A DNA stretch of 63,279 bases. It comes from Caldilineae bacterium. Its GTDB lineage: Bacteria > Chloroflexota > Anaerolineae > DUEN01. The translations under genes were made by a program, and so were the position numbers. Under the pieces are notes generated by a model, which searched no databases, had not been told where the DNA came from, and was given only the letters and a program-made list of their open reading frames with translations. Numbering within the stretch: the stretch's first letter is position 1; every line of letters starts with the position of its first letter. Where the stretch lies: positions 26,843 to 90,121 of the forward strand of contig DUEN01000020.1 of assembly GCA_011176545.1 (NCBI GenBank), given 5' to 3'. Shown in pieces: positions 2,719 through 9,513 of this stretch.

Positions 2719-4065
2719 TCAGGGAGCGGCTCCGTGGGCCTCCAGCATCGCGTCCAGCTCAGCCACCGAGGTGATGCGGGCGACGGAGCGCAGGAAGGCC
2801 GCCAGGGATGGGCTGAGCTCTCGTAATCTGATGAGCTTGGGGCCGATGGGATCGACCGCCCCTGGGCTAGTGGCGTAGCTCCCATGGAAGGCGAAGTACG
2901 CCTGGTTCAGGCGGCGAATGGCGTATCCATAGGAGAGAAATCGACGGCGCCGCGCTTCCATGAAGGCCTCCGCTTCATCGATGTAGCCCTTGGCCAGCAG
3001 GGCGTCCACGGCCAGCCGGGTCGCCCGCATCTCCTGGCCGAAGTCGAACTCCGGAGGTTCCACGGGGCGCTTCTGGCTGGGCGGCGTGCGCTCAGGTGGC
3101 ACGAGGTCGGGGTAAAAGCGTGCCAGCGCCTTAGCGCCGACCTCGTCGCCGACGATGGAGGCGACGGTCTCGTTCAGCGTGACGGTGTCGTTGCTATCGT
3201 AGTAGTGCCAGCCCAGGGGGTGGAAGGCCAGGTAGTTATGGGTCCACTCGTGGGCGATGGTGTTCAGGATCCAGTCAAGGCTAGCCCGATCGATCACCAT
3301 GGTGGGATAGGCGCCGAACCCGCCGACGCCCTCCACCAACGCCGACACGTTATCCAGGGATTCCACCTGGCTCTCCAGCAGCACGTGCTGGTTCAAGGGC
3401 AGATCCGGCTGCAGATATACCCCCATGTACAGCTCGATGCGAGCGCGCGGCGAGATGATCAGATAATACGGCGGCTCGGCGAAGGAGAACTTCACCGGCG
3501 GCCAGACCTGGCCCAGCAGGGTCAGCCCCTCCTCCCGCAGGACCGCGCTGATCTGGGCTTGCAGGATGGCCTCGGCTATGGGCCGCCGCCCCCTTTGGAG
3601 CTCTCGCAGCCTCGCGATTTCGGATCGCAGCGGGGCCGTCGCCGCATCCGGATCGACGACCGAGGAGTCCGCGTAGATGCGCTCGATACGTCCTTCCAGC
3701 GCGCCGATGCGGCGAGCAGCCGCCACGTATTCTCGCACGATCCGGGCTCGTTCGCCCGGAGGGATATCATCCGATGGGTCCGCGACCGTCTCCCAGGCCT
3801 TTTGGGCCAGCCCGCGGGCCTCCCATGCCCACAGACTAAATTCATATGGTCCGGTCAGCGTGCGCACCTGATATTTGAACCTCTCGTCCGGTGGGATGTG
3901 GTCGCCCGGGAGGCTCGTCAGGATGAACGCGATGAGCAGGATCGATAGCACCCAGCGTCTCCATCCCCGGGCCAACCGCTGGAGTGTGGCGCGAGCATAA
4001 AAGAGGCTGAGCGATAGGGACTCCTGGGCCAGGCCCGAGCGAACCGGCAGAGACGATTTGGACAT
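2719..4065 (-). CDS. Membrane-anchored zinc-metallopeptidase-like protein (HExxH)
   Basis: A 448-residue protein with one hydrophobic segment at about residues 41-54 (WVLSILLIAFILTSLPG), probably a signal anchor, then an outside domain. Around residue 270 it has AHEWTHNYL (HExxH) and, about 20 residues on, LNETVASIVGDE, which resembles the third zinc ligand Glu of gluzincins. This combination suggests an active extracellular zinc peptidase, but I do not recognise a named family. I chose the ATG at 4065, preceded by GAGGAT, over a longer frame from 4206 that would cover the promoter region. It is divergent from the tRNA/T-box locus. Confidence 0.72.
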   Translation of the reverse strand: MSKSSLPVRSGLAQESLSLSLFYARATLQRLARGWRRWVLSILLIAFILTSLPGDHIPPDERFKYQVRTLTGPYEFSLWAWEARGLAQKAWETVADPSDDIPPGERARIVREYVAAARRIGALEGRIERIYADSSVVDPDAATAPLRSEIARLRELQRGRRPIAEAILQAQISAVLREEGLTLLGQVWPPVKFSFAEPPYYLIISPRARIELYMGVYLQPDLPLNQHVLLESQVESLDNVSALVEGVGGFGAYPTMVIDRASLDWILNTIAHEWTHNYLAFHPLGWHYYDSNDTVTLNETVASIVGDEVGAKALARFYPDLVPPERTPPSQKRPVEPPEFDFGQEMRATRLAVDALLAKGYIDEAEAFMEARRRRFLSYGYAIRRLNQAYFAFHGSYATSPGAVDPIGPKLIRLRELSPSLAAFLRSVARITSVAELDAMLEAHGAAP

Positions 4066-4173
4066 GCCATGATCCTCGCGCGATGGACGAGAGCGGTCTG
4101 TAGCCAACACCCGCATTATAGCCGATGTTCGCGCGAGCGATAAGCGATAAGGGGCAGGCTGATGCTCAAAGAT

Positions 4174-4202
4174 TTGACAAACGGTAGCTTCTGGCCTATA
4201 CT
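4174..4202 (+). promoter_or_regulatory. Sigma70-type promoter for the tRNA-Ala / T-box / ilvE transcript
   Basis: TTGACA at 4174-4179 and TATACT at 4197-4202 are separated by exactly 17 bp, close to the consensus. Transcription would start near 4209, some 8 nt before the first tRNA-Ala. No other good promoter is visible between 4290 and 4540, so this is probably the promoter for both tRNAs and the T-box leader. Confidence 0.85.
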
Positions 4203-4216
4203 TCACAATGCTATAA

Positions 4217-4290
<74 letters not shown>

Positions 4291-4293
4291 TGG

Positions 4294-4345
4294 CTTATCG
4301 TCTGCGGCATGCCCTTCAGGCGAAGGGTATGCCACAGGTGATAAG
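4294..4345 (+). other. Two-tier RNA hairpin between tRNA-Ala(CGC) and the T-box
   Basis: A 12-bp stem (4306-4317 with 4322-4333, one G.U pair, loop AGGC) is enclosed by CTTATC at 4294-4299 and GATAAG at 4340-4345. No T tract follows, so it does not look like a terminator. It may isolate the tRNA from the T-box fold or serve as a processing site; that role is inference. Confidence 0.6.
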
Positions 4346-4539
4346 GGAAAGGCGGTGAACAGGAGTAGTAGGTCTACCCCCTAGCGAGTCGGGAAAGATC
4401 AGGTGGAAGCCCGACAGAGGTGGTTGGGGGTCCACCATGAAGGCCGAACTCGCCTGGGAGCTCTGGCCCTGAACATTTGAGATCAGTAGGGGACAGCGGG
4501 TGCGCCCGTTATCGCGCATAGAGTGGTCGGAGAAGATAT

Positions 4540-4612
4540 GGGGCTGTAGCTCAGCTGGGAGAGCGCCTCAATGGCATTGAGGAGGTCAGGGGTTCGACTC
4601 CCCTCAGCTCCA
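4540..4612 (+). tRNA. tRNA-Ala (anticodon GGC) inside T-box Stem III
   Basis: A complete cloverleaf with acceptor GGGGCTG/CAGCTCC (G3.U70), anticodon stem CCTCA/TGAGG around ATGGCAT (anticodon GGC, reads GCC), and T arm GGGG-TTCGACT-CCCC. Discriminator A; CCA not encoded (ACCTG follows). It is bracketed by the 7-bp T-box stem GTCGGAG/CTCCGAC and lies between the tRNA-reading Stem I and the antiterminator of that T-box. All arms are intact, so it looks functional rather than a remnant. Confidence 0.97.
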
Positions 4613-4652
4613 CCTGTTTGTGAGCTCCGACAAGCAGGGTGGTACCGCGGAG

Positions 4653-4690
4653 AACCCCTTCGTCCCTGAGAGGCGATGGGGTTTTCTTCT
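4653..4690 (+). terminator. T-box intrinsic terminator
   Basis: AACCCC (4653-4658) pairs with GGGGTT (4678-4683), extended inside by TCG/CGA and CCT/AGG, and is followed by a T-rich tail TTTTCTTCTT. In the alternative antiterminator, CAGGG at 4635-4639 can pair with CCCTG in 4664-4668 and display the TGGT bulge to uncharged tRNA. Confidence 0.9.
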
Positions 4691-4797
4691 TATATTGGGC
4701 GCTTGGATTCCTGACAACTCAAATGGTAGGAGTCCATGGACGCGCCTCGATCTTCCATGGTGCTCTGGCCCTAACGCCGTAGACAGGAGGAAACCTC

Positions 4798-5718
4798 ATG
4801 CCCATCAAGGAGTCGCAGTGGATCTGGTTTGATGGCGAGTTCGTGCCTTGGGCTGATGCTAAGGTCCATGTCCTATCCCACGCGTTGCATTACGGGAGCA
4901 GCGTCTTCGAGGGTATTCGTGCCTACGAGACGCCGCGAGGGGTGGCTATCTTCCGGTTGGAACCTCACGTGAAGCGGCTCTTCAACTCCTGCAAGATCGC
5001 CCGTATGCCGGTCCCCTATACACCGGAGCAGGTATCCGAGGCCATCATCGAGACGGTGCGTCGCAATGAGCTTCGCTCCTGCTACATCCGGCCTCTGGTC
5101 TTCCGGGGTTATGAGGTTCTCGGGGTTGACCCGCGCAAGTGCCCGGTGCATACCGTCATCGCCGCCTTTGAATGGGGCACTTACCTGGGCTCTGAGGCGC
5201 TGGAGCAGGGTGTGGACGTTGGTATCAGCTCATGGCGGCGGATGGCGCCCGATACCTTCCCCGCGCTGGCTAAGATCGGCGGCCATTACATCAACTCCCA
5301 ATTCATGGTGATGGAGGCGCGGGATCGCGGCTTCACCGAAGCCATCGCGCTGGATATTTATGGGTACGTATCGGAGGGCAGCGGCGAGAACCTGTTCGTC
5401 ATCCGCGATGGGGTTATCTATACGCCGCCGTTGGGCGCATCGATCCTGGGCGGTATCACCCGCGATAGCGTGATCACCATCGCCCGAGATCTGGGATACG
5501 AGGTGCGCGAGCAGTTGATCCCGCGGGAGATGTTGTACATCGCTGATGAGCTCTTCTTCACCGGCACAGCCGCGGAGGTCACGCCCATCCGCTCCGTAGA
5601 TGGGCAGCCGGTGGGCGAGGGACGCCGCGGCCCCATCACGGCGCGCATCCAGGAGCAGTTCTTCGGGATCACGCAGGGCAAGTTGCCCGATCGTTACGGA
5701 TGGCTGCATTACGTCTGA
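4798..5718 (+). CDS. ilvE: Branched-chain amino acid aminotransferase (class IV PLP enzyme)
   Basis: 306 residues, the usual length for IlvE (TIGR01122 type). Visible motifs are [28 protein letters not shown], a PLP-lysine region [22 protein letters not shown] and [10 protein letters not shown]. IlvE transfers amino groups between Leu/Ile/Val and 2-oxoglutarate in the cytoplasm. AGGAGG lies 8 nt before the ATG. It is the first gene after the T-box, so read-through depends on uncharged tRNA. The probable alanine specifier is unusual for this gene; an alanine-linked transaminase role is possible but not proven. A cupin gene follows after 21 bp. Confidence 0.93.
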
Positions 5719-6678: not shown

Positions 6679-9513
6679 ATGAGCGATCGTTACGTACCGC
6701 AGGAGATCGAGCCTAAGTGGCAGAAGAAGTGGGAGGAGGAGGGTCTGTATCGTACCGTCGAGGACCCCAACAAGCCGAAGTGGTATTTCCTGACCATGTT
6801 GCCGTATCCCAGCGGCGATCTTCATATCGGCCACTGGTACGCGATGACGCCATCCGATGCCGCGGCGCGATATAAGCGCATGCGGGGATACAATGTGTTC
6901 TTCCCCATCGGCTTCGACGCGTTCGGGTTGCCGGCCGAGAACGCGGCCATCCGACATGGCATCCATCCTGCCAAATGGACGTACCAGAACATCGAGCGCA
7001 TGCGCCGCCAGTTGAAGTCCATGGGGGCCATGTGGGCCTGGGATCGCGAGGTCATTACCTGTGACCCCCGCTATTACCGGTGGACGCAATGGTTCTTCCT
7101 GAAGTTCTATGAGAACGGCCTGGCCTACCGGGACTACGTCGCGGTGGATTTTTGCCCCACCTGTAACACCACGCTGGCCCGCGAGCAGGTGTGGGGCGAA
7201 GATCGCCACTGCGAGCGCTGCGGCACGCCGGTCATCCGTAAGAAGTTGAACCAGTGGCTGTTCCGCATCACCAAGTACGCGGATGAGCTGCTCGATTTCT
7301 CCAAGATCGACTGGCCGGAACGGGTCAAGCTCATGCAGACCAACTGGATCGGCCGCAGCGAGGGCGCTGAGGTGATCTTTAAGGTCGCGCCGGGGTTCCT
7401 GCCCGAGGATGCCGATCCGGCTGAGGGGGATATCGTGGTCTTCACCACCCGGCCCGACACGTTGTGGGGCGCCACCTTCATGGTGCTCTCCCCAGAGCAT
7501 CCGCTGGTGGAACGGATCACCACGCCGGAGTATCGGGCTGAGGTGGAGGCTTATCAGCAGCAGGCCGCCCGGCTGGACGAGATCACGCGTACCTCCACTG
7601 AAAGGGAGAAGACGGGCGTCTTCACCGGCGCGTATGCCATCAACCCGGTGAACGGCGAACGTATCCCCGTGTGGATCGCCGACTACGTGTTGATGACCTA
7701 TGGCACCGGCGCCATCATGGCCGTGCCCGCTCACGACGAACGCGACTATGAGTTCGCCCTGAAGTTCGGGCTGCCCATCATCCCGGTGATCGATCGCACG
7801 GATGGCCGGGCGAAGAGCCTGATCCGGCCGGGCGCCGTAGCTGACGGCTTCGTCGATCGCCTGCGGGAGGAGGGTTTCTCGCTCCAGGAGATGGACGAGG
7901 GTGTCCTGGTCACGCTGGAGGGGGATGAGCAGATCGATCGTTATGCGGCCTTGATCCGGGAGCACGTCCAGCCCGGGCATTGGTGCGAGATCGTGGGACG
8001 CCGCTGGCAGTTCATCTTCCCTGATGCCGTGCTGACGCTGGACTCCATCGCGGCGGATCGGGAGATCCTGAAGCGCTGCCAGGCGCTGGATCCCTCGCTG
8101 CAGGGCTATCGCACGACGATGGAGATGTTGAACGCCGTCCAGGGCTACAGGGACATCCTGTTCCATGACGAATACGGCGCGATGATCCATTCCGGCCCGT
8201 TCAGCGGCACGCCCGGCGATGTGGCGGTGAAGCGGGTCACCGAGTGGCTGGAGGAACAGGGCATCGGCAAGTTCGCCGTGAGTTACCGCCTGCGAGACTG
8301 GCTGATCAGCCGGCAGCGGATGTGGGGCGCGCCCATCCCCATCATCTACTGCCCGAAGTGCGGGACCGTGCCCGTGCCGTATGAGGATCTACCGGTGTTG
8401 CTGCCCGATGACGCGGAGTTCCTGCCCACCGGCGAGAGCCCGCTCAAATACCACGAGGGGTTCCGGTACGTGAAGTGTCCCAAGTGCGGCGCTGATGCCG
8501 AGCGCGAGACGGATACCATGGATACCTTCGTGTGTTCTTCATGGTACCACTACGCCTACGTGAGCCCTTACTACAAAGCGGGCGAGCCCATCGGCCCGGA
8601 CGACAAGCCGTTCGATCCGGAGAAGGGGAAGTACTGGCTGCCGGTGGATCAGTACACGGGCGGCATCGAGCACGCCACCATGCACCTGCTGTACACCCGG
8701 TTCTTCACCAAGGCCATGCGGGATATGGGCATCGTGGACTTCGACGAGCCTATGCTGCGCCTGTTCAACCAGGGCACGATCCTGGGCGAGGATGGCGAGA
8801 AGATGTCGAAGTCCCGCGGCAACGTCATCGCCCCGGATGATCTGGTGGAGCGCTACGGCGCGGACACCGTGCGGGCGTATTTAATGTTCATCGGCCCGTG
8901 GGATCAGGGTGGCCCGTGGAACTCACAGGGGATCGAGGGTGTGCGTCGGTTCCTGGACCGGGTGTGGAGCGTGGTGACGGAGCCGCCGGCCCATCCCGCC
9001 GACGGCGAGCCGACCGAGGAGGAGATCCGGGCGCTGAGGCGCAAGACCCATCAGACGATCCGCAAGGTGACGCACGACATCGAGAACTTCCGATTCAACA
9101 CGATGATCGCGGCGCTGATGGAGTTCAATAACTATCTGATTAAGGCCAAGGAGACGGCCGTCTATGGCACGCCGGCGTGGGATGAGGCCATCGACAGCCT
9201 GTTGCTGATGATGGCGCCCTCGACGCCGCACATCGCTGAGGAGCTGTGGCAGCGGCGGCATCCGGGTCCCAGCGTCCATCTGCAGTCCTGGCCGGAGTGG
9301 GACGAGGAGATCGCCAAGGAGGAGACGATCACGCTGGTCGTGCAGGTGAACGGTCGGGTGCGGGATCGGATCGAAGTGCCCGCCGACATTACGGAGGAGC
9401 AGGCCAAGGAGCTGGCGCTGGCCACGAAGGGCGCGCAGCGCCACACCGCTGGCAAGGAGATCGTGAAGATCATCTATGCGCCCCGTCGGCTGGTGAACAT
9501 CGTCGTGCGGTAG
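6679..9513 (+). CDS. leuS: Leucyl-tRNA synthetase
   Basis: 944-residue class Ia synthetase charging tRNA-Leu. It has the HIGH motif (DLHIGHW), zinc-binding CPTC...CERC and CPKC...CPKC pairs, the CP1 editing domain with TGTGAIMAVPAHDERD, YRLRDWLISRQRMWG, KMSKS (EKMSKSRGN near residue 709) and a C-terminal anticodon/tail region. It is longer than the usual 810-880 residues because about 115 residues (roughly 376-492) are inserted between the editing-domain core and LFHDEYGAMIHSG. GGGAGTG precedes the ATG. It lies 182 bp after the ilvE-cupin-membrane protein genes on the same strand and may share their T-box leader. Confidence 0.97.
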   Translation: MSDRYVPQEIEPKWQKKWEEEGLYRTVEDPNKPKWYFLTMLPYPSGDLHIGHWYAMTPSDAAARYKRMRGYNVFFPIGFDAFGLPAENAAIRHGIHPAKWTYQNIERMRRQLKSMGAMWAWDREVITCDPRYYRWTQWFFLKFYENGLAYRDYVAVDFCPTCNTTLAREQVWGEDRHCERCGTPVIRKKLNQWLFRITKYADELLDFSKIDWPERVKLMQTNWIGRSEGAEVIFKVAPGFLPEDADPAEGDIVVFTTRPDTLWGATFMVLSPEHPLVERITTPEYRAEVEAYQQQAARLDEITRTSTEREKTGVFTGAYAINPVNGERIPVWIADYVLMTYGTGAIMAVPAHDERDYEFALKFGLPIIPVIDRTDGRAKSLIRPGAVADGFVDRLREEGFSLQEMDEGVLVTLEGDEQIDRYAALIREHVQPGHWCEIVGRRWQFIFPDAVLTLDSIAADREILKRCQALDPSLQGYRTTMEMLNAVQGYRDILFHDEYGAMIHSGPFSGTPGDVAVKRVTEWLEEQGIGKFAVSYRLRDWLISRQRMWGAPIPIIYCPKCGTVPVPYEDLPVLLPDDAEFLPTGESPLKYHEGFRYVKCPKCGADAERETDTMDTFVCSSWYHYAYVSPYYKAGEPIGPDDKPFDPEKGKYWLPVDQYTGGIEHATMHLLYTRFFTKAMRDMGIVDFDEPMLRLFNQGTILGEDGEKMSKSRGNVIAPDDLVERYGADTVRAYLMFIGPWDQGGPWNSQGIEGVRRFLDRVWSVVTEPPAHPADGEPTEEEIRALRRKTHQTIRKVTHDIENFRFNTMIAALMEFNNYLIKAKETAVYGTPAWDEAIDSLLLMMAPSTPHIAEELWQRRHPGPSVHLQSWPEWDEEIAKEETITLVVQVNGRVRDRIEVPADITEEQAKELALATKGAQRHTAGKEIVKIIYAPRRLVNIVVR

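Follow-up and report, generated by a model that had tools for sequence, protein, structure and literature searches.

T-box leaders of the leuS type (Rfam family RF00230, specifier CUC) are built from a Stem I with its specifier loop, an RRRNG-Stem III-AA motif, the T-box sequence, an antiterminator and a terminator ahead of leuS, and the loop that closes Stem III in ordinary T-boxes is short. Transcripts that join a tRNA to protein genes are known from bacterial operons such as tRNA-tufB of Escherichia coli, from which the tRNA is cut out by processing, and in Bacillus subtilis the leader of the thrS T-box is cleaved by a general ribonuclease after the regulatory decision has been made. The locus presented here has the layout of a leuS-type T-box, whereas its Stem III loop houses a whole tRNA gene for a different amino acid; it would resemble tRNA-tufB in its shared transcript and its processing, although there the tRNA lies outside any regulatory fold. 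A T-box and tRNA-Ala also occur together in Clostridium acetobutylicum, where, according to the accessible part of PMC4695836, tRNA-Ala is the ligand of the alaS T-box, whereas here tRNA-Ala is the cargo of a Leu T-box. The open literature searched holds no description of a tRNA gene inside a T-box, in agreement with the original prediction, which knew of no such case, with the reservation that absence from this literature is not absence from print. In their accessible parts, PMC2494555 uses neither “tRNA gene” nor “stem III”, and PMC7778990, PMC8509007 and PMC9433436 do not describe a tRNA gene inside a T-box.

The window, by which we mean the whole stretch of 63,279 nucleotides that was analysed, carries all features discussed below on its forward strand. 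Run against the 501 bases given to it, the RF00230 covariance model aligned to positions 4346–4670 over its entire length (model positions 1–219 of 219) with 82 bits and an E value of 2.6e-18, which describes a single T-box leader with a 90-nt insert in its Stem III loop. The alignment places this insert between a 5' arm GUCGGAG (4526–4532), immediately 3' of GAGUG, and a 3' arm CUCCGAC (4625–4631) followed by AA, and so the window matches the RRRNG-Stem III-AA motif as given in the accessible part of PMC7778990. The original prediction had proposed a complete T-box with a tRNA in its Stem III loop, named the same two arms and suggested a covariance-model run to see whether the parts on either side of the tRNA align as one T-box, which they do. 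Stem I spans 4360–4456 (base CAGG/CCUG, AGUA at 4367–4370 and GAA at 4446–4448) and presents the Leu specifier CUC at 4449–4451. The antiterminator, AGGG-UGGUACC-GCG ... CGUCCCU with its UGGU bulge at 4640–4643, occupies 4636–4667, and the intrinsic terminator GAGAACCCC ... GGGGUUUUCUUC follows at 4650–4690, so that AGGGUGGNACCGCG, the antiterminator and the competing terminator are all present at 4636–4690. Terminator prediction found one site, at 4664–4681, against a shuffle mean of 0.8, which is weak on its own. Plain minimum-energy folding of 4346–4690 gave a structure other than the T-box fold, a common outcome with T-boxes.

The insert contains an intact tRNA-Ala(GGC) gene, as had been predicted, which ARAGORN places at 4540–4614 and RF00005 at 4540–4612 (64.4 bits). 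Read as 4540–4612, it forms a cloverleaf with the anticodon GGC at 4573–4575, carries A73 and the G3:U70 pair that gives a tRNA its alanine identity, and has no encoded CCA. It lies 5' of the terminator, again as predicted. A second gene, tRNA-Ala(CGC) (4217–4290 by ARAGORN; 4217–4289 by RF00005, at 65.9 bits), is the first element of the predicted leader transcript. Rfam sets the gathering score at 93 bits and the T-box reaches 82, so that a routine scan of the window misses it and reports the two tRNAs only; this is a warning for annotation, since T-box and tRNA calls overlap here and the T-box of the window's class lies below the cut-off. The tRNA-Ala genes found in the window genome have the anticodons UGC, CGC and GGC, one of each. 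A pattern search of 50 carrier genomes gave a single GGC-anticodon match, at the T-box, in 38 of the 38 that are fully listed, these being mostly draft genomes in which a divergent copy could escape the pattern. As the only copy found, the nested tRNA-Ala(GGC) is presumably matured and aminoacylated in the cell.

A DNA search with positions 4330–4700 gave a match in all 41 relatives, often through the tRNA alone. RF00230 was present in 23 of the 30 relative loci fetched (E up to 0.01), and none of these 23 T-boxes reaches 93 bits, including the four without a nested tRNA (best 91.9 bits). A complete tRNA-Ala(GGC) stands between the Stem III arms in 18 of the 23, which is the outcome of the search of related genomes that had been suggested along with the prediction. 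One more (L026) has only the start of tRNA-Ala(GGC), at a contig end, and four (L016, L020, L024 and L030) have nothing nested and instead a tandem of tRNA-Ala(CGC) and tRNA-Ala(GGC) 5' of Stem I. We also observed a second tRNA-Ala(CGC) at G007:C326:11963-12094 (L229) whose similarity extends into the T-box part of the query.

Named genomes were scanned with a pattern consisting of a T-arm and, about 15–76 nt further on, a T-box sequence; it admits any tRNA and any T-box and covers the common spellings of both rather than all, so rarer pairings could be missed. At least 119 stretches matched. Among the 119 matches listed, ARAGORN found tRNA-Ala(GGC) in 113, tRNA-Ala(CGC) in one (L096) and no tRNA in five, of which two are chance matches (L035 and L039), one is a Leu T-box (L128) and two are truncated at the locus edge (L043 and L122). 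The 115 loci kept exclude L035, L039, L096 and L128, which lack tRNA-Ala(GGC), and the phylum tally, made from submitters' labels, also excludes L126; the resulting 114 kept loci among the matches listed divide into Bacillota (52), Chloroflexota (42), Thermomicrobiota (8), Atribacterota (3), Coprothermobacterota (2), Armatimonadota (2), Caldisericota (1), Thermodesulfobacteriota (1) and unnamed (3). A wider set of 130 loci excludes L043 and L122, in which the locus edge cuts the tRNA, and L006, whose T-box motif is spelled CGGGGUGG; it comprises 118 distinct tRNA-to-T-box stretches because some relatives are in both collections.

A strict form of the pattern matched in 28 of 400 genomes of the window's phylum and in 40 of 398 genomes of the phylum of Syntrophomonas palmitatica, with no match for the reversed control pattern in either, and a looser form matched in 46 of 396 genomes with one control match. 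Thirty of these 46 matches were fetched, and ARAGORN found tRNA-Ala(GGC) in 25, one tRNA cut at a contig end and none in four; judged from the matched letters, 15 of the other 16 end in TCCACCA, as the fetched ones do, and one is without a tRNA. The looser set thus holds no other kind of tRNA (41 of 46 tRNA-Ala, 5 of 46 none). In all 18 Bacillota loci scanned, out of 52, RF00230 scores above its gathering score (94.2–133.2 bits, model positions 1–219), and cmscan places an RF00005 tRNA inside the RF00230 match of each. Carriers include isolates (Syntrophomonas palmitatica, Thermosyntropha lipolytica, Desulfofundulus and Dictyobacter) as well as single-contig genomes. The original prediction was right about the arrangement in the window and fell short on its reach, having missed both this wide spread and the leuS gene downstream.

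The two arms of Stem III were compared across loci by measuring the longest uninterrupted helix between the stretch 5' of the tRNA and the arm 5' of AA. Over 126 loci its mean is 5.95, against 4.22 with shuffled partners (sd 0.11, maximum 4.48 in 200). At fixed positions, 72.5% of the cells of 69 distinct rows are paired against 51.8% (sd 2.0) under within-column shuffling, and five or six pair types occur at each Stem III position. When the helix is required directly behind RRRNG, 87 of 126 rows have at least five pairs against 19.1 with swapped partners (sd 3.6, maximum 31 in 500), and a strict test finds an uninterrupted helix in 77 of 126 rows, the others having bulged or weak stems. These pairings are not independent events, since the rows are related. 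The Stem III arms covary around the tRNA, and the nested arrangement, which recurs in relatives and in other phyla and whose arms pair much better with their own partners than with swapped ones, is far beyond chance.

The specifier in the window is read from GAA-CUC at 4446–4451, with ilvE and leuS 3' of it, and AACTC stands 5' of the tRNA in 127 of the 130 loci; of the three exceptions, two (L113 and L136) lack upstream DNA and the third, L126, has lost its Stem I. The same reading was checked on the other T-boxes of the window genome, in which RF00230 finds eight T-boxes and ARAGORN a tRNA inside that of the window alone. It fits six of the seven others, with Val ahead of valS, Thr ahead of thrS, Ser ahead of serS, Phe ahead of pheS and Trp ahead of trpE and of a TrpB-like gene, where the Val, Thr and Phe T-boxes are read with one base between GAA and the specifier triplet. 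The seventh has the specifier UGG (Trp) and lies 5' of a transporter gene without a known substrate. For the Trp T-box at L152 (G000:C36), the best NCBIfam match of the following gene, below that model's cut-off, is to a branched-chain amino acid ABC transporter substrate-binding protein. A tRNA-Leu(GAG) gene is encoded elsewhere in the window genome (G000:C165:29844-29929, L276); it was found by pattern search, the whole-genome RF00005 search and DNA similarity having missed it, a miss that is a caveat for the single-copy finding on tRNA-Ala(GGC) as well. From its specifier, we predict tRNA-Leu(GAG) to be the ligand of the T-box. The proposal that the leader encodes the tRNA it senses is not supported, given a CUC (Leu) specifier, leuS downstream and a tRNA-Leu(GAG) encoded elsewhere.

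Downstream of the leader lie ilvE, for a branched-chain amino acid transaminase (4798–5718; TIGR01122, 440 bits against a cut-off of 245.55), two short frames, and leuS, for leucyl-tRNA synthetase (6679–9513; TIGR00396, 973.6 bits against a cut-off of 548.4). Their strand and order suggest that leuS is likely in the same operon as the T-box leader and ilvE. With the window LeuS as the tblastn query, leuS was found downstream in 104 of the 115 kept loci, in 90 of them at most 460 nt away; of the 11 loci without a match, eight have less than 400 nt of DNA, L073 has ilvE, and L034 and L082 have 1.1–1.7 kb without a match. A sigma-70-type promoter, TTGACA-17-TATACT, is predicted at 4174–4202 and is the sole promoter-like site reported in 3900–5000 (one found against a shuffle mean of 0.3, sd 0.7). 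Promoter-like sites (9 of 12 or better) were counted in 110 of the 130 loci, with 20 skipped, and occur about 130 nt or less 5' of Stem I in 68 and within 300 nt in 104; in Bacillota such a site lies 5' of Stem I in 39 of 41 loci and inside the T-box in 4 of 41.

With these data several other accounts of the locus can be weighed. It could be supposed that the T-box does read tRNA-Ala(GGC), taking the GCC after CUC as its codon, since GCC is cognate to GGC and stands behind CUC in 91 of 127 tRNA-bearing loci, and since tRNA-Ala and tRNA-Leu both have an A73 that suits UGGU. We regard this as very unlikely: CUC occupies the specifier place of the genome's other T-boxes, the downstream gene is leuS and not alaS, and the CC of GCC is taken up by pairing with the GG in the Stem I base. 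Nor is GCC a second, alanine codon, because GTC, ACC, ATC or another triplet replaces it in 36 of the 127 loci and because the Val T-box and the three Trp T-boxes of the window genome have GCC behind their specifiers as well, so that GCC is unspecific and the specifier remains CUC; both forms of the idea were rejected on these grounds. A separate tRNA gene under a promoter of its own, set beside T-box fragments, is a shade less probable again. A promoter-like site does occur inside the T-box, ahead of the tRNA, in 11 of the 110 loci, but shuffles alone give 10 in this equal-size window, and the window itself has no such site inside its T-box, with 3900–5000 examined. The tRNA is therefore most likely without a promoter of its own, and the full RF00230 match that bridges both halves, together with the covarying arms, led us to dismiss the division into two units. 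An error of assembly or binning comes to mind because the window genome is a draft of 239 contigs (92.72% complete, 5.64% contaminated), yet independent assemblies, isolates and single-contig genomes among them, carry the same arrangement, which leaves this explanation a negligible chance, and it too was discarded.

Somewhat more room, though still little, is left for an effect in cis, by which the ACC or ACCA that ends the nested tRNA would compete for UGGU before processing and so tune antitermination. In its favour stand A73 in 130 of 130 loci, the UGGU bulge in 124 of 130 and an encoded CCA in 83 of 130, and the tRNA 3' end lies 8–86 nt 5' of the T-box sequence. This distance is not conserved, however, and the 47 of 130 loci without an encoded CCA, the window included, rule out cis pairing of an encoded CCA as a general feature. 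(G3:U70, too, holds in 130 of 130 loci, and the base just 5' of the tRNA is T in 97 of the 129 loci that have a base there.) A far more serious contender, to which we give a sizeable minority chance, is that the tRNA gene landed in a permissive loop and stays there as the only copy, nesting bringing no advantage. It agrees with the one tRNA-Ala(GGC) in each of the 38 fully listed genomes, which cannot then be lost, and with L126, which keeps its tRNA in the absence of Stem I and Stem II. It also agrees with the four of 23 relative T-boxes that have the tRNA upstream, the three placeable ones of which represent three changes in the LeuS tree (98 rows), where they fall in three places. It accounts less well for the finding of tRNA-Ala(GGC) only, and in Leu T-boxes only, although the pattern admits others, and for the looser pattern, whose matches are tRNA-Ala or tRNA-less. 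The occurrence in several phyla and in both halves of the LeuS tree likewise implies one pairing that was long retained or repeatedly transferred.

A LeuS tree of 89 rows, built with FastTree, separates Bacillota, Atribacterota and Coprothermobacterota from Chloroflexota, Thermomicrobiota and Armatimonadota with few exceptions. This fits a long vertical keeping of the arrangement, with old transfers possible; the single Thermodesulfobacteriota row and one Bacillota row, which stand among other phyla, may be misnamed bins. Two loci show reduced layouts. L126 (Atribacteria) has lost Stem I and Stem II and kept tRNA-Ala(GGC), the antiterminator and leuS, while in L096 (an Anaerolineales bin) tRNA-Ala(CGC) is followed directly by the antiterminator, without Stem I, Stem II or tRNA-Ala(GGC), as recombination between two tRNA-Ala copies would leave it.

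Our preferred reading, which we consider probable, is of a Leu T-box whose leader is at once the switch for the ilvE...leuS genes and the precursor of the only tRNA-Ala(GGC) found in the genome. RNA polymerase would start 5' of tRNA-Ala(CGC) and transcribe, in order, Stem I, Stem II, the 5' arm of Stem III, the nested tRNA, the 3' arm and the antiterminator/terminator region, while the tRNA folds into a compact domain carried on the end of Stem III. In T-box structures Stem III points away from the tRNA-binding faces, and the sensor would for this reason still be able to close. Contact of uncharged tRNA-Leu(GAG) with UGGU would stabilise the antiterminator, so that ilvE and leuS are made, and with charged tRNA-Leu the terminator would stay. 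Since the nested gene precedes the terminator, tRNA-Ala(GGC) would be made whatever the T-box decides. After the decision, RNase P, a 3' processing enzyme and the CCA-adding enzyme would free the tRNA, and its release would sever Stem I and Stem II from the antiterminator; the earlier suggestion that cleavage by RNase P and RNase Z parts the sensor from the antiterminator seems reasonable from the position of the tRNA. After a cut at this stage the mRNA would begin with a short structured segment, as in the thrS leader of B. subtilis, except that there a general ribonuclease acts and here the cut would be the maturation of the nested tRNA.

The terminator in such a unit would allow a strong tRNA promoter to be shared with a less-expressed synthetase gene. 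Both the nested and the tandem-upstream layouts put tRNA-Ala before the terminator of a leuS transcript, an order that points to shared transcription with attenuation rather than to cross-talk between alanine and leucine. Four relatives carry the tRNA upstream, so shared transcription does not depend on placing it in Stem III, and our model accordingly leaves the frequent use of Stem III unexplained. The nested layout may have been kept either because a single copy cannot be lost or because excision of the tRNA stops sensing and defines where the mRNA begins. The latter can be carried further to a riboswitch that is split in several phyla, an extension we put forward tentatively and rate slightly below the possibility of a merely permissive loop. 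In it the maturation of the cell's only tRNA-Ala(GGC) would be part of the life cycle of the Leu T-box: RNase P and the 3' enzyme would cut every leader into sensor, tRNA and antiterminator-mRNA, the cut would end sensing and set the 5' end and the stability of the leuS mRNA, and the halves might stay joined by Stem III. If this is true, the supply of an alanine tRNA and the control of a leucine enzyme are bound into one RNA.

The locus nests a regulatory RNA and a tRNA gene in one fold, which means that Stem III tolerates a whole folded domain. With the nested tRNA apparently in single copy, every carrier cell must mature a tRNA out of a riboswitch, and the timing of co-transcriptional sensing relative to RNA processing becomes testable. 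The arrangement also offers a way to ask why several phyla have kept tRNA-Ala paired with leuS. Elsewhere in the window genome, a tRNA-Val(GAC) gene ends 39 nt 5' of the thrS T-box (L151, G000:C120:6285-6622), and from this adjacency the co-transcription of tRNAs with T-boxes may be commoner.
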